A stretch of DNA of 20,264 bases from IMG/VR virus record IMGVR_UViG_3300022857_000101, positions 1 to 20,264 of that record. One strand, given 5' to 3'. The DNA is from a virus. The notes beneath the pieces are model-generated. The model did no database searches. It worked only from the letters and a program-made list of their open reading frames with translations, and was not told the origin of the DNA. Shown here in pieces: positions 720 through 19,135 of the stretch; position 1 is the stretch's first letter; each line of letters starts with the position of its first letter. Both the position numbers and the translations under genes were made by a program.

Positions 720-752
720 TAAAATAAAAATTATTTGTAGCTTTTTTAATTT

Positions 753-770
753 CCGTGTAATTATATAATA
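753..770 (+). promoter_or_regulatory. Putative phage promoter P1 (groEL unit)
   Basis: The sequence CCGTGTAATTATATAATA lies 12 bases before the groEL start, with a run of six T at 742-747 upstream. The core ATTATATAATA recurs exactly at 7553 and 16569 and, as ATTATATTATA, at 19201 and 20076, each time before a gene that follows a non-coding gap. It contains a TATAAT-like -10 box. A start site about 7 bases downstream would give an almost leaderless mRNA. Recurrence is seen directly; promoter activity is inferred. Confidence 0.5.
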
Positions 771-782: not shown

Positions 783-2321
783 ATGAATCAAATAGTAAAG
801 CAATTTAGCTTCGGAGACGAGGGTAGAGATAAAGTATTTAAAGGTATTGAGACCTTAACGGAAGCAGTGGCTTCTACACTAGGTGGCGGCGGAGAATGTG
901 TTATATTCGAGGACGCACAAGGAATACCTGTAATAACAAAAGATGGTGTAACAGTAGCAGAACTATCTGTATTGTTGGATCCTGTAGAAAATATGGGTGC
1001 ATCATTAGTTAAACAAGCAGCCAGAAGAACGGTGACCGAAGCAGGTGATGGTACAACCACATCCACAGTATTAGCCCATGCAATACTAAAAGAATTTGAC
1101 AAGTCAAAAGAAAAGTTTACCAGTAGAGAAAAGCGCGCAGCTATTGAAAAAGTGGTGGGTAAAGCCTTAGATAACTTGAGTAAACAAGCGAAACCAGTTA
1201 ATGGCGGCATGATTGACGAAGTGGCTACTATATCTACAAACAACGATCCTGAACTAGGCAAGCTAATTGCAGACGCATACAGGGCAGTTGATTTAACCGG
1301 GGTTGTTATGATGGAAACATCACAAGACGGTAATACTAGTATAGAAGTAGTTGAAGGGGTGCAATACGAAAAAGGGTTCACAAACAATCATTTTGTAACA
1401 AACCCTGCGACTAACACAGCAGAACTAGTTAATCCAAAGATATTACTAGTAGATTCGGCAGTGGATACTATTAGGCAGATACAAACAATATTAGAGCATG
1501 TAATACGAAATAACATGCCGTTACTCATTGTAGGGGACGTAGATCCCAAAGTTGCAGCAGCATTAGCAATGAATAAGAATAAAGGGTCTATAAAGATTAA
1601 TATAGTTCCTGCGCCTACACACGGGGTGAATAGAAAAGAAATATTCGATGACTTAGCGCTATTAACGGGGGCTACAGTTATAAGTGAAAACCTAGGGGAT
1701 GATTTAGATCTAATCGATCTATCTTGTTTAGGTACTTGCTTAAAGTCTGTGTCAACATTCAAAGATACGGTCTTCCAAATAGATGAAGAGCAATCTGAAG
1801 AAGTGCGGTCTATCATAAGCAACATAAAAGAACAATTGCTCACGGAGTCTAACTCTGGCAAGGTAATTAAGTTTGAAAAACGATTAGCAATGCTTTCAGC
1901 TAAACTAGCTATAGTAAAAGTAGGTGGTAACTCCGATGTAGAGCTAAACGAAAAGAAAGATAGGGTGGAGGATGCAATATGCGCTACCAAAGCAGCTATT
2001 AAAGAAGGTGTGGTTGCCGGAGGGGGAATTGCCCTTATAAATGCAGCTACGAGTATAAAAGCTAAAACACCTGCGGAGGAATTAGTTTTAAAAGCACTAT
2101 ACTACCCTTGCAAAACAATAATGAAAAACGCAGGCCTCAAATACAAGGACATCGATAAAAAGAACTACGGGGTCAACGTGGAAACCGGTAAAACGGTTAA
2201 TATGTTTAAAGCAGGAATTATAGATCCCGTATTGGTTACAAAATCAGCTTTAAAGAATGCTGCCTCAGTTGCTTCGACTATATTGTCAACTAACTGTGTT
2301 ATGTCTAACGTAAGAGGATAA
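783..2321 (+). CDS. groEL: Phage GroEL-type chaperonin (Cpn60, 512 aa)
   Basis: This is an ATP-driven group I chaperonin that would form a ring chamber for folding proteins in the cytoplasm. The equatorial domain carries ITKDGVTVA (D54, equivalent to E. coli D52) and AGDGTTT (D89, equivalent to D87). RVEDA supplies D397 (equivalent to catalytic D398) and is followed by the VVAGGG turn at 411-415, so ATPase activity looks intact. The apical domain is less conserved: the segment that reads RGYLSPYF in E. coli is KGFTNNHF here (197-204). The protein stops after TNCVMSNVRG and lacks the Gly-Met-rich C-terminal tail of bacterial GroEL, making it about 35 residues shorter than the usual 545-550. 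groES follows after one base. Phage GroELs are known, and a role in folding capsid, fibre or other virion proteins is the likely inference. Confidence 0.95.
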   Translation: MNQIVKQFSFGDEGRDKVFKGIETLTEAVASTLGGGGECVIFEDAQGIPVITKDGVTVAELSVLLDPVENMGASLVKQAARRTVTEAGDGTTTSTVLAHAILKEFDKSKEKFTSREKRAAIEKVVGKALDNLSKQAKPVNGGMIDEVATISTNNDPELGKLIADAYRAVDLTGVVMMETSQDGNTSIEVVEGVQYEKGFTNNHFVTNPATNTAELVNPKILLVDSAVDTIRQIQTILEHVIRNNMPLLIVGDVDPKVAAALAMNKNKGSIKINIVPAPTHGVNRKEIFDDLALLTGATVISENLGDDLDLIDLSCLGTCLKSVSTFKDTVFQIDEEQSEEVRSIISNIKEQLLTESNSGKVIKFEKRLAMLSAKLAIVKVGGNSDVELNEKKDRVEDAICATKAAIKEGVVAGGGIALINAATSIKAKTPAEELVLKALYYPCKTIMKNAGLKYKDIDKKNYGVNVETGKTVNMFKAGIIDPVLVTKSALKNAASVASTILSTNCVMSNVRG

Positions 2322-2322
2322 T

Positions 2323-2583
2323 ATGAACGCAATAGGTAGAAACATAATTATAAAGAAGTTAAAGGAAGGGGTAACCGCTACTAAAGGAGGTTTGCTTCTG
2401 GCTGAGAATCACCGCGAGGACATAAGGTATGTAGAAGCTACGGTTGTATCAACTGGTAGTGAATGTGACGGAATCAACAAAGACGACGTTATATATTACG
2501 ACAGACACGCCGGTCATAAGATAGAGCTCGATCGTGAAACATACCACGTTATTAAAGTACAAGATGTAGTATTTGTTTTATGA
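2323..2583 (+). CDS. groES: Phage GroES-type co-chaperonin (Cpn10, 86 aa)
   Basis: This is the predicted lid of the chaperonin ring. Residues 17-30 (VTATKGGLLLAEN) match the GroES mobile loop, where a GG pair (22-23) precedes three hydrophobic residues (LLL) that dock on the GroEL apical domain. The C-terminal half has the usual pattern KDDVIYYDRHAG then ETYHVIKVQDVVFVL. At 86 aa it is about 10 residues shorter than bacterial GroES; the missing part falls in the roof-loop region, so the dome may be more open, as in phage T4 gp31. The start lies one base after the groEL stop, and the stop overlaps the next start as ATGA, indicating translational coupling. Confidence 0.92.
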   Translation: MNAIGRNIIIKKLKEGVTATKGGLLLAENHREDIRYVEATVVSTGSECDGINKDDVIYYDRHAGHKIELDRETYHVIKVQDVVFVL

Positions 2584-3032
2584 GGAAGTTAACCGGGGGT
2601 GATATAAAAGATCTAGGGTTATTAAAGCATTATAGGATTATACGCAAATGGGCTTGCAAAACAAATGGGATAACCGATGCAGATTTAGAACTACTAATAT
2701 ACTTCGATTGTTTAGGACAGTTTAAGAAGCGTGATTTTGAAGACGGTAGCCTTACATACTCTTGGGACAATAGGAGATGGAATAGACTGCTTAAAGAGGG
2801 CTGGATAGTCAAATGGCGAGGTTACAACGGAGCAGATAAAAGCTATAGTATATATAAGATAAGTTTCAGGTGCAAATGCTTAATACAGCAGATGTATCGG
2901 ATAATGTTAGGGGAAGAGGATATACCTACTTCAACTAGGCGTAACCCCGTAATGAAAAAAGCATCTTACAGCGATAAAGTTTACTCCGCTGCATTTGATA
3001 AAGTTAATAACGATAAAACAAGATATTTATGA
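2580..3032 (+). CDS. Winged-helix-like phage protein (150 aa)
   Basis: I do not recognise a named family with certainty. Residues 12-45 (LGLLKHYRIIRKWACKTNG then ITDADLELLIYFDCLG) look like the first helices of a MarR-type winged helix. WNRLLKEGWIVKWRG at about 66-80 followed by SYSIYKIS resembles the recognition region and a beta wing. The basic C-terminus (RRNPVMKKASYSDK) would suit nucleic-acid contact. It overlaps both neighbours by four bases, so it is translated with groES and the next small gene. It could be a regulator of late genes or a small virion or packaging protein. The winged-helix fold is inferred from pattern only. Confidence 0.6.
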   Translation: MRKLTGGDIKDLGLLKHYRIIRKWACKTNGITDADLELLIYFDCLGQFKKRDFEDGSLTYSWDNRRWNRLLKEGWIVKWRGYNGADKSYSIYKISFRCKCLIQQMYRIMLGEEDIPTSTRRNPVMKKASYSDKVYSAAFDKVNNDKTRYL

Positions 3033-4787: not shown

Positions 4788-5074
4788 TGGGACAATTTGG
4801 AAACCAACCAGACTTCGGAACGGAAGCAGCAACAGTAACAGCTACTGACACTATAACTTTCGCTACAAGCGTACGAAGCTCGTGTTTATACATAGGAACA
4901 GGTGGGGACGTTAAAGTTATACTATCTGGTGTAACCCAAGCAGACGGTACGCCTCCTACGGCAGTAGAAGCTGTACTATTCAAGAATATCCCTGACGGAT
5001 CGTTCTTGCCGGTGATAGTAGACTATGTATTACTTACGGGCACAACTGCAACTGACATTATAGCAATAAAATAA
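4787..5074 (+). CDS. Small beta-rich virion protein (95 aa)
   Basis: A compact beta-sandwich-like protein. The phrases CLYIGTGGDVKVILSGV (about 34-50) and FKNIPDGSFLPVIVDYVLLTG (about 65-85) match a pattern I know from marine phage structural proteins, where small domains with YIGT-GG-VKV and NVPDG-x-LPV decorate heads or tails. It starts in a TAATG overlap with the holin gene. The precise position in the virion cannot be told from sequence. Confidence 0.6.
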   Translation: MGQFGNQPDFGTEAATVTATDTITFATSVRSSCLYIGTGGDVKVILSGVTQADGTPPTAVEAVLFKNIPDGSFLPVIVDYVLLTGTTATDIIAIK

Positions 5075-5075
5075 T

Positions 5076-5225
5076 ATGGGACTAGGATTAGGGTTAGGTA
5101 TCTGGTGGCCTATTCAAACATCAATTATTCCTGGTTTACTGAAACTACTTAAAGCCAGAGCTGACTACTTTGAAAACGCTAGGTGTACCACCGCAACTTT
5201 ACAAAATTTAGAAAATATAAAATAG
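5076..5225 (+). CDS. Small protein with hydrophobic N-terminus (49 aa)
   Basis: The ATG at 5076 follows the previous stop by one base, and the frame ends with TAG one base before the fibre gene. It begins MGLGLGLGIWWPIQTS, continues with a hydrophobic stretch to about residue 25, then KARADYFENARCTTATLQN. It may be a small membrane or virion peptide. I recall similar GLGLGLG-type mini-proteins beside tail-fibre genes in marine phages. No function can be assigned. Confidence 0.55.
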   Translation: MGLGLGLGIWWPIQTSIIPGLLKLLKARADYFENARCTTATLQNLENIK

Positions 5226-5226
5226 T

Positions 5227-7110
5227 ATGCCAAATTTACTTCAAAAAGCTTCCATAGTATTAACTCCTACCGCTTACGACAGCGGTAAGTTTTTATGCGC
5301 AAAACCCATAGATGGATCGGGGGATTTTGACTTCAGTAGAAATTCTGCGGCGACGCGTGTTAATTCTCAAGGGTTAGTTAAAGATGTTCAGATACTATCT
5401 AGTAATTTGGTGCAGAACGGAGACTTTAGTCAATTAGGAAGTGAAGAGGTTTCTAATGGTAGCTTTACTAATGGGGGAACAGATTGGGATTTTGGAACGG
5501 GTTGGAGTGTAGGAGATAATAAAGCGGTTTGTGATGGAACTAACATTGCCTATTTAACACAAACTGGAGTTTTAGCAACAGGGACATCATATAGGGTGCA
5601 GTTTGATATTGTAGATTATACAAGTGGGAGTGTAAAATATAGAGATAATGGTCTTGTAAGTGGACAATCTTTTTCTGGTGTTGGCAGTTATACAGATTAT
5701 GTTGTAGCTGGTGGTGGTCAGTTTAGATTAATGAGTGAAAGTTTCATCGGCTCTATTACAAATATTAGTGTTAAGGAAGTAGGGCAAAATTGGAGTTTGG
5801 AGGCTGGCTGGAGTATTGGAGCTAATAAAGCGGTTGGAGATGGCACGGCTTTTACCAATATAACGCAAACACCTATACTTATACAAAACAAAAAAGTAAA
5901 GTTAACTTTTGATATTTTAGATTATGTTAGTGGAACATTTAGGTTAATACCATCAGATAGACAAGATGGATTAGATGAAAGATTTAGCGGAAATGGTAGC
6001 TATGAAGTTATTTACACATCAACAGTAGATTTTTTTAGGTTTCGGCAACAAGTATTTGTTGGCTCTGTAACAAACATATCAGTTATAGAAATTACAAATG
6101 ATACTAACCTCCCTAGAATAAACTACGAGGGTTTCAGTTATGATGGTAGCGGTAATATAATTCCAGATAGCGGCTGTGGGAGCTGGTTGTGGGAAAATCA
6201 GTCAACAAACCTAATAACTTATAGCGAGGATTTTAGTAATAGTAGTTGGTTTAAAATGAATACAACTATAACAACAAACACCGTAATTTCTCCTGACGGT
6301 ACTTTAAATGCTTCGTCTTGGATTACAGATACTGCAGGTCAAAAGCTTCAAAGAAGTACAATCGGTTTAACTAGTGGGAATGAATATACTTTCAGTATCT
6401 ATATAAAAGCAGATACAAATATGAATGTAGGAATAGGTGGTATAACATCAGCAGTTGTATCTGTAGCAGTGACAACCGAGTGGCAAAGGTTTGAAGTAAC
6501 TCAAAATCCAAATTCTACTACAAGATACCCCCAATTGCGAAATATAGGTGATAGTGGAACTTTTTACATTTGGGGTGCACAACTAGAAGAACAATCATAC
6601 GCAACATCTTACATTCCCACATCGGGAACATTAGTAACACGTAACCAAGATTTATGTACCAATGGAGGTAGTGTTTCAGCAATAAATAGTGCAGAGGGTG
6701 TTTTATATGCAGAAATAGCAGCGTTGGCTAATGCAGGAACTAATAGAGCAATAGCTATAAGCGATGGCAGTACCGCAAATGCAGTAAGATTTTATTATAT
6801 CGCAACAGATAATAGAATTATAGGTACTGTAAAATCTGGAGGTACAACATATTTTAACTTTAACAGTGTTTTATCAAATGCAACAGATTTTTTAAAAGTA
6901 GCTATTTCATATAAATTAAATGAATTTAAAATGTATGTAAATGGTATTTTAGTATTTACAGATACAAGCGGCAATACTCCTATAAATTTAAATGAATTAG
7001 CTTTTGATGATGGCGCTGGCAATGCCAACTTCTACGGCAAAACTAAATGCGTTGCAGTTTGGAAAGAAGCTTTAAGCGATGAGGAACTTGCAGAACTAAC
7101 AACTATATAA
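5227..7110 (+). CDS. Tail fibre/adhesin with jelly-roll modules (627 aa)
   Basis: This is the likely receptor-binding or carbohydrate-binding virion protein. The N-terminus (FDFSRNSAATRVNSQGLVKD, about 35-54) is a phrase typical of phage fibre-like proteins. Two related jelly-roll modules follow, about residues 80-185 and 190-292, each with the sequence W-x-GW-S-G-NKAV-DGT...DI-DY-SG...GS-TNISV. A third carbohydrate-binding-like module (about 325-470) ends in YIWGAQLEEQSYATSYIPT. The C-terminal 150 residues look like a concanavalin/laminin-G fold (VAISYKLNEFKMYVNGILVF) and end in WKEALSDEELAEL. There is no enzyme motif. The modular repeats suggest growth by duplication, and this is the gene most likely to define host range. 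Confidence 0.8.
   Translation: MPNLLQKASIVLTPTAYDSGKFLCAKPIDGSGDFDFSRNSAATRVNSQGLVKDVQILSSNLVQNGDFSQLGSEEVSNGSFTNGGTDWDFGTGWSVGDNKAVCDGTNIAYLTQTGVLATGTSYRVQFDIVDYTSGSVKYRDNGLVSGQSFSGVGSYTDYVVAGGGQFRLMSESFIGSITNISVKEVGQNWSLEAGWSIGANKAVGDGTAFTNITQTPILIQNKKVKLTFDILDYVSGTFRLIPSDRQDGLDERFSGNGSYEVIYTSTVDFFRFRQQVFVGSVTNISVIEITNDTNLPRINYEGFSYDGSGNIIPDSGCGSWLWENQSTNLITYSEDFSNSSWFKMNTTITTNTVISPDGTLNASSWITDTAGQKLQRSTIGLTSGNEYTFSIYIKADTNMNVGIGGITSAVVSVAVTTEWQRFEVTQNPNSTTRYPQLRNIGDSGTFYIWGAQLEEQSYATSYIPTSGTLVTRNQDLCTNGGSVSAINSAEGVLYAEIAALANAGTNRAIAISDGSTANAVRFYYIATDNRIIGTVKSGGTTYFNFNSVLSNATDFLKVAISYKLNEFKMYVNGILVFTDTSGNTPINLNELAFDDGAGNANFYGKTKCVAVWKEALSDEELAELTTI
5501..5846 (+). repeat. Internal DNA repeat in the fibre gene (5501-5540 and 5807-5846)
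   Basis: Two in-frame 40-base stretches encode GWSVGDNKAVCDGT and GWSIGANKAVGDGT. About 33 of the 40 bases agree, including TAATAAAGCGGTT. They mark the same place in two tandem jelly-roll modules 306 bases apart (102 codons). The retained DNA identity suggests a fairly recent duplication or continuing recombination between modules. Confidence 0.65.
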
Positions 7111-7526: not shown

Positions 7527-7545
7527 AAACAAGTTTTTTAAAATT

Positions 7546-7563
7546 ACGGGTGATTATATAATA
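7546..7563 (+). promoter_or_regulatory. Putative phage promoter P2 (zincin-gldL-gldM unit)
   Basis: ACGGGTGATTATATAATA matches P1 at 15 of 18 bases and contains the identical core ATTATATAATA. As at P1, six T (7534-7539) lie upstream. The core ends 10 bases before the ATG at 7574. No other putative promoter of this type is seen until 16569, so this one may drive everything from the zincin-like gene through gldL, gldM and terminase to the portal. Confidence 0.5.
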
Positions 7564-7573
7564 AACAAAGAGT

Positions 7574-8532: not shown

Positions 8533-8934
8533 ATGTTAAAATCTAAACAAGAGTTAATCAATATAGTGTATGGCCTTGGGGCCGCGGTTGTAATCATCGG
8601 AGCATTATTTAAAATTATGCACTGGCCTTACGGAAACTTGATGCTTATTATAGGGCTCATAACCGAGGCGGCAGTGTTCGTTATTTCTGCATTTGAAAAA
8701 CCTGAAAAATCTTTAGAGGAATCAACCTCGTTTGTGGGAGAATTAAAATCTTCCAAAGAATACAATGAAGAAATAGAAAAAGCCACATTACAAATGAAAG
8801 CTTTTTCCAAGCAAGCCTCCGATAATAAATTAGTAGCAGAAAAATTAAAAGAACAAATGGGGCAATCGGCAAAAAGTCTTTCCTCATTAAATAAAGTATA
8901 CGGTGGTATGTTATCCGCGATGGGCAAAAGCTAA
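8533..8934 (+). CDS. gldL: GldL homologue, gliding/T9SS motor subunit, shortened (133 aa)
   Basis: GldL is the proton-channel ring protein of the inner-membrane motor that powers gliding and type IX secretion in Bacteroidota. Residues 11-35 (VYGLGAAVVIIGALFKIMHW) form the first membrane helix. Residues 36-54 (LMLIIGLITEAAVFVISAFE) form the second and carry E45, the likely equivalent of the essential motor Glu; K27 and H30 are also kept. The C-terminus, SLNKVYGGMLSAMGKS, is the conserved GldL ending. Host GldL, as I recall for Flavobacterium johnsoniae, is about 215 aa. Here the cytoplasmic coiled middle is some 80 residues shorter, yet the frame is open and both ends are intact. gldM follows after 42 bases, as in host gldKLMN operons, but gldK and gldN are absent. 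Confidence 0.93.
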   Translation: MLKSKQELINIVYGLGAAVVIIGALFKIMHWPYGNLMLIIGLITEAAVFVISAFEKPEKSLEESTSFVGELKSSKEYNEEIEKATLQMKAFSKQASDNKLVAEKLKEQMGQSAKSLSSLNKVYGGMLSAMGKS

Positions 8935-8976: not shown

Positions 8977-10569
8977 ATGGCAGGAGGAAAAGAAACCCCC
9001 AGGCAAAAAATGATTAACCTAATGTATTTGGTTTTCATTGCAATGCTGGCATTAAACATGTCAAAAGAAGTATTGTCTGCATTTGGATCGATTAATGAAA
9101 AATTAAACTTAGCTAATGCTAATTATGTCAGCAAAAACAATAAAGCTTTAAATAAGCTACTAAAAAAAGCCGCTACAAATAATGAATTTAAAGTAGCTTC
9201 AGAAATTGCAGATAGTGTACACGAGTTGTCAAACACATACAACAATTATTTAGCATCTCAAAAAAAACTGCTGCTGTCTAATCCTATATTTGTAAATGAC
9301 TCCACTAATGAAAAAACAGAATATGAGGTCATGGACCAATCTGATTTTTTAGATAAGTTGTATTATAGAGGAGGTAAGCTAACGCAAGAGGGGCAAACAT
9401 TTCTAACCCAAATGGATATCTACAGAAATAGTATGACCGCGCTACTTAAAGACGAAGACTCATTGCTGGTTGCTCAAATAAGCGATTATTTTGATTCTAG
9501 TGGCATAAAAGGGGGTGATGGCGTAATTAAAGATTATATAAGCTACAATTATGTAGGCTTCCCATTAGTTTCTTCATTAACTAAAATGACACAAATACAG
9601 AATAGTGTAAATACTATAGAAAACGATGTTCTTTTTTTGTTAGTTAACGACGCCTTAGAGGATGGTGCCGGAATAGAAGAAAATTACAAAGCAATTATGA
9701 TTGCCCCTAGATCTTCTTATTACGCAGGATCTACATTTGATGGCATAATATCTTTGGGGCGAGTAGACACTTCTACTAAGCCGGCTAAAGTTGAATTGTT
9801 ACTTGATGGAAAAGAAATTAAAGAAACCGAATATGAATTTAATCGGGGTAGAATAGCCCTTAAAGTAAGAGCTAGCAAAGCTGGAGATCATAAAATTACA
9901 GGAAAACTTATTTACATGCAAGATGGTAATGAGGTGGAGGTACTTGTAGATAAAAAGTTTACAACTATCAATAAGCCAAACATAGCCACAGTATCATCCG
10001 ATAAAATGAATGTACTGTATAGAGGCGTTTTAAATCCTTTAACTATTTCTTTTAGCGGCGTAAATGATGAAAACATTAAAGTTACGGCTCCGGGCTTATT
10101 AAAGCTAGGCAAAGGTAAATACGGAATTAACGTCACAGGGGTTAAAAGTGGAACTGTAACTGTTAATGTATCAGGAACACTTCCGGACGGAGAGATTGTT
10201 AAAGACAAAGCTTTATTCCGTATTAAGCAGGTGCCTTCTCCACAAGCAACGCTACGAGGGGATATAGCTTCAGAAGGAGAATTTAGGCTTTTGCGATCAA
10301 GCTTACAAAGATCTACAGTAGGAGCTAGTATGGGAAAAGATTTTGATTTTGATCTTCCATTAAAAGTTACCGGATTTAGCGTGTCAATTAGGGGTTATCC
10401 AACAATAGCCGTAGAAGGCAATAGATTTAATGAAAGGGCAATTAGAGCTATCAGCAAAGCAGGAGGAGGTGCCACCGTAAGAATATTTGACATCCAAGCT
10501 AAAATAATTTCAAATTCTAAATATAGAATGCCTAAAGTGGAGCAAATATATATTTCTTTAATAGATTAA
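8977..10569 (+). CDS. gldM: GldM homologue, gliding/T9SS motor subunit, full length (530 aa)
   Basis: GldM is the periplasmic shaft of the GldLM motor: one N-terminal helix sits in the GldL ring, and a dimeric periplasmic rod reaches toward GldK/GldN. The N-terminus is almost the host consensus: TPRQKMINLMYLVFIAMLAL (7-26), with R9, the Arg implicated in proton coupling, then NMSKEVLSAFGSINEKL. The helical D1 region covers about 35-235 and includes NYVGFPLVSSLTKMTQIQNS. The beta domains follow: YYAGSTFDGIISLGR (about 248-262), KMNVLYRGVLNPLTISFSGV (about 345-364) and SGTLPDGEIVKDKALFRIK (about 398-416). The C-terminal domain runs to the stop (FSVSIRGYPTIAVEGNRFN). Length is close to the roughly 510-520 aa of host GldM and no part is missing, so a functional protein is expected. 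Confidence 0.95.
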   Translation: MAGGKETPRQKMINLMYLVFIAMLALNMSKEVLSAFGSINEKLNLANANYVSKNNKALNKLLKKAATNNEFKVASEIADSVHELSNTYNNYLASQKKLLLSNPIFVNDSTNEKTEYEVMDQSDFLDKLYYRGGKLTQEGQTFLTQMDIYRNSMTALLKDEDSLLVAQISDYFDSSGIKGGDGVIKDYISYNYVGFPLVSSLTKMTQIQNSVNTIENDVLFLLVNDALEDGAGIEENYKAIMIAPRSSYYAGSTFDGIISLGRVDTSTKPAKVELLLDGKEIKETEYEFNRGRIALKVRASKAGDHKITGKLIYMQDGNEVEVLVDKKFTTINKPNIATVSSDKMNVLYRGVLNPLTISFSGVNDENIKVTAPGLLKLGKGKYGINVTGVKSGTVTVNVSGTLPDGEIVKDKALFRIKQVPSPQATLRGDIASEGEFRLLRSSLQRSTVGASMGKDFDFDLPLKVTGFSVSIRGYPTIAVEGNRFNERAIRAISKAGGGATVRIFDIQAKIISNSKYRMPKVEQIYISLID

Positions 10570-17677: not shown

Positions 17678-19135
17678 ATGAGTTTATTACCACAGTTTGG
17701 GGAATTAGTCCCAACACAAAAACCGCAATTACTTGCGTCAAATTATCTACAATGGACAGACAGCGCAGGAGCTGACAACTTTGCGGATTTTGCACAGCAG
17801 TATTTACCAGAAATCTACGAAGCGGAAGTAGAGCGTTATGGAAACAGAACGTTATCTGGATTTTTACAAATGGTTGGCGCTGAAATGCCAATGACATCTG
17901 ATCAAGTTATTTGGTCTGAACAAAACCGTTTACACATTTCTTATATAGGTTGTACCACTGGAGCAATAGCGGGAACTACTCAAATAATAAATGTTAACCC
18001 TGGAGCAGCAGTTGATGTTCAAAATGTAATATCAGTAAATGATACTGTTGTCGTTTTGGATCCAACAACTGGGCTAGAAGCTAAAGCGGTCGTTACAGCA
18101 TCTGTAACAGGAGCAGGGGCAGGAGCTCAAATTACTGTTCAAACTTTTTCTGGAAAAACTCTTACAGGAGCGGCCCCGGGTGGATTAGGATTTACAGCCA
18201 CAGGGTTAAAGGTATTCGTTTACGGATCTACCTATGGCAAAGGATCTGACACAGTTGGAGGAAATGCTAGAACTAGTATTGAGCCTGTATTAACGCAGTA
18301 TTCAAACTCGCCAATTATAATTAGAGATCAATATGTTGTATCTGGATCAGATACCGCACAGATCGGATGGGTAAATGTAGCGACTGAAGATGGAACTGAT
18401 GGATACCTATGGTACCTAAAAGCGGAATCTGAAACTCGTTTACGTTTTAACGATTACCTAGAAATGGCGATGGTGGAAGGCGAATTAAATGCGTCTACAT
18501 TAAATGCATTTACTCAGCCAGGAACAGAAGGCTTATTTGCTGCTATTCAAGAAAGAGGAAATGTAGAAACCGGGTTTACTGCTGCCAACGGATTAGGGGA
18601 GTTTGACAAAATCCTTAAGAATCTCGATACACAAGGGGCTATTGAAGAGAACATGCTGTTCCTAAACAGAGAAACTGCTTTAGACTTTGACGATATGCTA
18701 GCTGAACTATCTTCTGGCGCTGCCGGGGGTGTTGCTTATGGATTATTTGAAAATTCAGCAGATATGGCGCTTAACTTAGGATTCAGTGGATTCCGTAGAG
18801 GATCTTATGACTTTTACAAAACAGATTGGAAATACCTAAATGATGCATCTACTCGTGGGGCGATCAACGGTGTTAATTCAATTGATGGTGTATTAGTGCC
18901 AGCTGGAACTTCTACTGTTTACGATCAAGTACTAGGAACAAATATCAGACGTCCATTTTTGCACGTACGATACAGAGCTTCTCAAACTGACGATCGTAGA
19001 ATGAAGTCTTGGTTAACAGGATCTGTAGGCGGAGCAAGTAGCTCAACTCTTGATGCAATGGAAGTAAACTTCCTATCTGAAAGATGTTTGATTACTCAAG
19101 CCGCTAACAACTTTGTACTATTCAAAGGAGTCTAA
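17678..19135 (+). CDS. Major capsid protein, HK97-fold type (485 aa)
   Basis: The main shell protein. The N-terminal part (DFAQQYLPEIYEAEVERYGN; RTLSGFLQMVGAEMPMTSDQ) would be the N-arm. Residues about 95-180 are Gly/Val/Thr-rich (GAGAGAQITVQTFSGKTLTG) and may be an inserted beta domain. The long region YNSPIIIRDQY-like to LKAESETRLRFNDYLEMAMV (about 205-265) suits the E-loop and spine helix. HVRYRASQTDDRRMKSWLTG near the end is typical of the P domain. The position two bases after the scaffold gene, the length, and the terminator right after it fit a highly expressed capsid gene. I saw no obvious maturation cleavage site. Confidence 0.82.
   Translation: MSLLPQFGELVPTQKPQLLASNYLQWTDSAGADNFADFAQQYLPEIYEAEVERYGNRTLSGFLQMVGAEMPMTSDQVIWSEQNRLHISYIGCTTGAIAGTTQIINVNPGAAVDVQNVISVNDTVVVLDPTTGLEAKAVVTASVTGAGAGAQITVQTFSGKTLTGAAPGGLGFTATGLKVFVYGSTYGKGSDTVGGNARTSIEPVLTQYSNSPIIIRDQYVVSGSDTAQIGWVNVATEDGTDGYLWYLKAESETRLRFNDYLEMAMVEGELNASTLNAFTQPGTEGLFAAIQERGNVETGFTAANGLGEFDKILKNLDTQGAIEENMLFLNRETALDFDDMLAELSSGAAGGVAYGLFENSADMALNLGFSGFRRGSYDFYKTDWKYLNDASTRGAINGVNSIDGVLVPAGTSTVYDQVLGTNIRRPFLHVRYRASQTDDRRMKSWLTGSVGGASSSTLDAMEVNFLSERCLITQAANNFVLFKGV

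Follow-up and report, generated by a model that had tools for sequence, protein, structure and literature searches.

A phage-borne GroEL/GroES pair with an intact nucleotide site, a remodeled apical face, and an apparently dismantled ring–ring interface

Introduction

Why does a phage carry a chaperonin together with a co-chaperonin of its own, and what kind of machine would the two proteins form? The question is raised by adjacent groEL and groES genes in a virus record of 20,264 bases, which was analyzed in its whole length (hereafter, the window) and in which terminase, portal, and capsid genes follow downstream of the pair on the same strand. A double heptameric ring is usual, but not strictly defining, in group I chaperonins, mitochondrial Hsp60 (mtHsp60) being an exception. 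GroEL homologues were known earlier from genomes of marine putative Flavobacteriaceae phages, and the discovery of the gene in such phages is not new (PMC5332604). Cells infected with a relative, phi38:1, produce the GroEL of that phage (PMC13288928).

Here, we propose, with a probability of about 60%, that a large clade of marine Flavobacteriia phages of ~60 kb has in this pair a dedicated group I chaperonin and co-chaperonin. The observed parts of this explanation are the homology of both proteins, the intact nucleotide site, the invariable presence of groES beside groEL, membership in an old phage clade, and purifying selection. The architecture of the ring and the client are discussed below as separate and more tentative matters.

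Results

Identity of the gene pair and the nucleotide site

The original prediction of a phage GroEL/GroES pair at 783–2583 was confirmed: both open reading frames are found there (Table 1), and Pfam, PHROGs, and NCBIfam concur on their identities. GroEL matched Pfam Cpn60_TCP1 (4.5e-51, 174.5 bits; cut-off 34.3), phrog_5725 (2e-127), and the NCBIfam models PRK12849 (430.9 bits; cut-off 352) and NF000592 (428.7; cut-off 397), and it stayed under the equivalog cut-off of TIGR02348 (425.7 vs 582.1). This full-length Cpn60 homology over a curated cut-off assigns the protein to the group I chaperonins. GroES matched Pfam Cpn10 (1.5e-11, 44.6 bits; cut-off 21.1) and has both the Cpn10 fold and the hydrophobic tripeptide of the mobile loop. 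The single-chain AF2 models have pLDDT values of 83.8 (GroEL) and 86.8 (GroES). In Foldseek searches, the former resembled mtHsp60 (9shk; TM 0.89) and GroEL–ADP (TM 0.84), and the matches of the latter were Cpn10 structures.

Table 1. Positions of the features of the window discussed in the text
Feature	Position	Strand	Remarks
Putative phage promoter (TGTAG...TTATATAATA)	736..770	+	35 bases, conserved; ends 12 nt before the groEL start codon
Phage groEL	783..2321	+	512 aa, no Gly-Met tail; Pfam Cpn60, phrog_5725, NCBIfam PRK12849
D54 codon (E. coli D52)	942..944	+	identical in 116/116 family members listed
D89 codon (E. coli D87)	1047..1049	+	identical in 116/116 family members listed
KGFTNNHF apical segment (E. 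coli RGYLSPYF)	1371..1394	+	GroEL residues 197-204
Q234 in helix H (E. coli L234, GroES and client contact)	1482..1484	+	Q in 116/116 listed; hosts L/M in 50/50
LAMN in helix I (E. coli L262-V263-V264-N265)	1563..1574	+	GroEL residues 261-264
D397 codon (E. coli D398)	1971..1973	+	identical in 116/116 family members listed
Shortened equatorial loop, E. coli 421-439	2049..2081 (approximate)	+	holds D435 of the K105-D435 ring–ring salt bridge
Shortened equatorial loop, E. coli 459-476	2133..2168 (approximate)	+	E461, S463, V464 ring–ring contacts
Phage groES	2323..2583	+	86 aa; start 1 nt past the groEL stop codon; Pfam Cpn10
GroES mobile-loop tip GGLLL (E. coli GGIVL)	2386..2400	+	GGLLL in 109/119, GGL in 119/119 listed
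Trimmed GroES roof hairpin	2455..2478 (approximate limits)	+	8 residues
orf2580	2580..3032	+	150 aa, overlaps the groES stop by 4 nt; phrog_17028 2.5e-9
Major capsid protein candidate, likeliest client (inferred)	17678..19135	+	485 aa; phrog_13704 3e-91, virion structural protein

Two IMG/VR scans with family alignments yielded at least 116 different complete GroELs and at least 119 different GroES proteins, which are the family members listed in all counts below. The three aspartates that the original prediction had described as kept are invariant in 116/116 listed sequences, as are 17 of the 22 scored nucleotide-site positions, these three included. Changes in the family concern P33, replaced by A or G, and A480, replaced by V in 113/116 listed sequences. 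The nucleotide site is thus that of a group I chaperonin.

Family, distribution, and origin

The original prediction had called a complete phage pair unusual, which was not borne out. Among the matches listed, groES lies directly downstream of groEL in all 175 complete loci, with start distances of –20 to +1 nt. Both genes also occur in the isolates elemo and immuto (Flavobacterium phages), Panino (Maribacter), and phi40:1 (Cellulophaga) and in the uncultured genome ctfjg026 (MW202828). elemo, Panino, and ctfjg026 share with the window the order groEL–groES, related terminase and capsid genes, the lack of a Gly-Met tail, a weakened binding face, and a large loss of the ring–ring salt bridges, but their GroELs are merely 34–39% identical to that of the window. 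The Cellulophaga phages phi38:1 and phi40:1 and the genomes of marine putative Flavobacteriaceae phages likewise have a phage GroEL and homologous capsid and terminase proteins (PMC5332604); however, the GroEL identity is 35%, and in phi40:1 the order is groES first, then one other gene, then groEL.

In the phylogenetic tree, the GroEL family forms one clade (support 100/99) outside the GroELs of Bacteroidota hosts. elemo and Panino, which have the terminase and capsid lineage in common with the window, are the nearest-grouping phages. Approximately unbiased (AU) tests rejected joining the family with Flavobacteriaceae GroEL (p = 1.9e-4) and with all sampled Bacteroidota hosts (p = 8.6e-5), although long phage branches leave the exact joins uncertain. 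Nesting within host GroEL, the outcome that would have contradicted phage-specific adaptation, was therefore absent. Pairwise dN/dS of GroEL is ~0.04, indicating strong purifying selection and hence a gene in use. The intact ATP site, this selection, and the separate clade support the earlier view of a working, phage-adapted machine.

Recent capture of a host chaperonin that supplies the cell with general extra folding capacity is highly improbable. Such host-like GroELs do exist in phages, since those of immuto and DAC16 have only 0–1 of nine binding residues changed, but the family GroEL is at most 43% identical to any sampled host GroEL, and its binding face and ring interface are unlike those of all sampled hosts. 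The candidate was rejected on the AU tests, subject to the same caution about long branches.

Between ctfjg026 and the window, the terminase is 63% identical, and GroEL and GroES are 34–35% and ~35% identical, respectively; phage GroEL either evolves more quickly than the packaging gene or has been replaced. One contig (L042, positions 5001–6540) contains a groEL copy with several frame changes between pieces of high identity, which are probably sequencing errors.

Apical domain

The altered segments of the substrate-binding face were found as originally claimed: KGFTNNHF at residues 197–204 and LAMN at 261–264. Across the listed family, H203 occurs in 101/116 sequences (hosts, Y203 in 50/50), and helix I has M264 in 116/116 and A263 in 106/116 (hosts, VV in 50/50), while F204 and L237 are retained throughout (116/116). 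In the family consensus, six of the nine classical client/GroES contact residues differ from hosts, compared with 0/9 between E. coli and Bacteroidota, so that the canonical hydrophobic apical residues, typical of group I but not strictly defining, are largely replaced. The Kyte–Doolittle sum of eight face residues drops from 19.9 in hosts (18.1–20.0) to 10.3 in the listed family (5.9–12.3) and 8.2 in the GroEL of the window. Judged from the alignments, the apical face is really altered, in a manner largely constant within the family. Several of the altered residues are sites at which substitution by charged residues disables E. coli GroEL, and weak client binding is therefore possible.

The part of the claim that singled out the face did not stand. 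Change at the face (6/9) is not enriched over the other host-conserved apical positions (59/102, p = 0.44), nor with another definition of the face (p = 0.32), and we rejected the face as a special target. Rather, the apical domain as a whole is remodeled more than the equatorial domain (65/111 vs 43/126 host-conserved positions changed, p = 2e-4), a bias absent from the host-like phage GroELs of immuto and DAC16.

C-terminal tail and GroES lid

The Gly-Met tail, which is typical of group I chaperonins but not strictly defining, had been reported missing; it is indeed absent from the GroEL of the window, from all 116 listed family members, and from most other phage GroELs that were checked. 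The predicted shortening of the GroES roof was also found: it has 8 residues here, whereas most Bacteroidota hosts have 12 and E. coli has 17. Five of the nine residues that separate the phage roof from that of E. coli are already missing in hosts, and shortening as an entirely phage-specific trait was rejected. The region around the mobile loop is three residues longer. At the position of I25, all 119 listed GroES proteins have L. Since 14 of 51 host GroES proteins likewise have L (37 have I), this residue was discarded as a phage-specific mark of weak lid binding. Single-ring GroEL is reported to function with GroES variants, one of them I25L (PMC5575113); the residue fits such a partner without being specific.

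The original prediction had likened the cage to one enlarged as in phage T4. The T4 co-chaperonin gp31, with longer loops and without roof loops, is thought to enlarge the cage for its client, the 56 kDa capsid protein (PMC6318259). The phage GroES resembles gp31 in the direction of change, with a reduced roof and a longer loop region, but its changes are smaller: gp31 has no roof loops and a mobile loop of 22 versus 16 residues, whereas the roof here keeps 8 residues and the loop region gains three. Moreover, gp31 partners the host GroEL.

Ring–ring interface

All 50 host GroELs have the K105–D435 pair, the R452–E461 pair, a small residue at position 109, and one of V464 type. Among the listed family GroELs, the K105–D435 pair occurs in 9/116 (23/116 under a lenient rule), R452–E461 in 42/116, the small residue at 109 (A109) in 13/116, and the V464-type residue in 0/116; single residues persist more often (E461, 49/116; K105, 83/116). 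The loop matching E. coli 421–439 has 12 residues in 116/116 listed sequences versus 19–20 in hosts, and that matching 459–476, modeled as coil by AF2, has a median length of 13 versus 18. Host residues are retained at a mean frequency of 0.18 at seven contact positions and 0.56 at 157 other host-conserved equatorial positions, a difference whose p value (0.03) is indicative only, since the sequences are related and the loops are hard to align. The apparent loss of these contacts had been overlooked in the first reading.

SR1, the single-ring E. coli mutant, is mutated at R452, E461, S463, and V464 (PMC12696368), and mtHsp60 is mainly a single ring, for which the loss of both salt bridges is the cited explanation (PMC5575113). 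The lost contacts of the phage family include SR1 positions, which makes a single-ring GroEL with GroES plausible, and the mtHsp60-like loss of the two pairs is largely seen in the family sequences. The human mtHsp60–Hsp10 pair shares with the phage pair the lack of K105–D435 and E461–R452 and the use of a co-chaperonin, and it is among the closest folds (9shk) (PMC5575113). However, its identity is 36%, the TM match may reflect the conformational state, and the single-ring cycle of mtHsp60 is itself debated. Foldseek was rejected as a proof of a single ring, since its top matches are in different conformations and the model of one chain says nothing about rings.

A conventional double ring whose interface was rebuilt, with other contacts in place of the lost salt bridges, is given a little less than an even chance. 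The GroEL of phage EL, only ~22% identical to GroEL, forms double rings that split only with ATP (PMC7185714), and mtHsp60 still makes football-shaped double rings with a large interface despite lacking both salt bridges (PMC5575113). The persistence of E461 and K105 in part of the family agrees with this alternative, while the near-disappearance of the K105–D435 pair, V464-type residue, and A109, the shortening of two interface loops, and the low contact-position retention speak against it. Our own proposal is that a marine phage clade, independently of mitochondria, turned GroEL/GroES into a single-ring machine with a lid, which a weak, less hydrophobic interface would set free; we hold it only tentatively, at odds clearly below even. 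Other phage GroEL homologues have an altered or labile ring–ring assembly, namely OBP and AR9 (single ring) and EL (split by ATP) (PMC9598537, PMC7185714). These need no co-chaperonin, whereas the family of the window always has its own GroES, and GroELs of Bacillus and Pseudomonas giant phages are only ~21–27% identical to that of the window.

Proposed working cycle

The following cycle is proposed for the phage pair. GroEL subunits would assemble into a seven-fold ring, whose less hydrophobic apical face binds an unfolded phage protein. ATP binding would then lift the apical face onto the phage GroES via its LLL loop. Without Gly-Met tails, and with a trimmed roof and a mobile-loop region extended by three residues, the closed cage may be roomier than that of the host. 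The lid would probably be released through the weak GroEL–GroES interface and not by second-ring signaling, because the standard ring–ring contacts are mostly gone; this is the least certain step.

It is improbable that the phage GroEL has a role other than folding, such as that of a protein associated with the virion or delivered early. Preparations of free phi38:1 virions are reported to have contained a methylated (dimethylated) GroEL peptide (PMC13288928), but it could be carry-over from lysed cells, and the intact ATPase site and the ever-present GroES speak for a folding cycle.

Candidate clients

The likeliest client of the phage cage would be the capsid protein, of ~53 kDa as estimated from its length (485 aa), whose homologue in Calle_1 is annotated as the major capsid protein. 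Capsid homologues occur in 85 phage records, of which, by record counts by organism and host, 77 carry GroEL; the other eight are phi19:3-type phages with a remote homologue (23%). This co-occurrence suits a capsid client, but it could reflect shared descent alone, because unrelated phages (immuto, phi14:2, and Vibrio phages) carry GroEL too. phi19:3, with no annotated GroEL, has two GroES genes (L374, 4085–4687; L373, 32116–32370), and one of its GroES proteins, of 200 aa, is encoded directly upstream of the terminase.

That the pair mainly serves fiber, tail, or replication proteins is unlikely, though it has some basis in gene order: in the window, lysis and tail genes are close to groEL–groES, and in phi40:1 and immuto the chaperonin genes adjoin those for DNA polymerase. 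The nearby 627-aa tail protein is without a counterpart in the compared stretches of family genomes, whereas groEL is in all of them. The capsid protein is the best guess, with a better circumstantial case than the fiber.

Proposed operon, upstream element, and gliding-motor genes

The 35-base element stands before groEL in close relatives, and shuffled sequences gave no expectation of it by chance. orf2580 is conserved at 61–94% in seven family genomes compared, and weak relatives are located near groES on the opposite strand in elemo and Panino. Its Pfam matches were all sub-threshold, and a Pfam identity was rejected. groEL and groES form a proposed operon, probably with orf2580 as the third gene.

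A 32-base element (TTTTTT..ATTACG.GT.ATTATATAATAAA) occurs in two copies, at 741–772 before groEL and at 7534–7565 before a block of orf7574, gldL, and gldM; the latter copy repeats the core of the 35-base element. This second copy stands, in three relatives, before a gene whose 114-aa product has a signal-like N terminus. The arrangement looks like a small phage promoter regulon.

The gldL (8533–8934) and gldM (8977–10569) genes encode components of the gliding/type IX secretion motor. GldL is internally deleted (133 aa vs ~210 in hosts), and GldM is full-length (NCBIfam TIGR03517, 357 bits). A second phage contig (L050) has a GldM 91% identical at the same place (dN/dS 0.07), and none was found in 24 other GroEL-family records searched. 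Flavobacterial gliding genes have been linked to phage adsorption and resistance (PMC13288928), so the phage copies might serve in superinfection exclusion or in taking over the motor. These genes are possibly more novel than the chaperonin pair.

Discussion

What is new in the phage pair, on the evidence of the alignments, is a variant in which the motor is intact, the face remodeled, the lid somewhat gp31-like, and the ring–ring interface largely dismantled. Among phage GroELs studied biochemically, those of EL, OBP, and AR9 work without a lid, and bacterial GroEL needs two rings for lid release. Whether two rings are needed has so far been approached via engineered SR1 mutants and mtHsp60; a lidded phage pair without ring–ring contacts would test it directly. 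The phage family would also offer a capsid-adapted cage and many natural variants for relating face chemistry to the choice of client.
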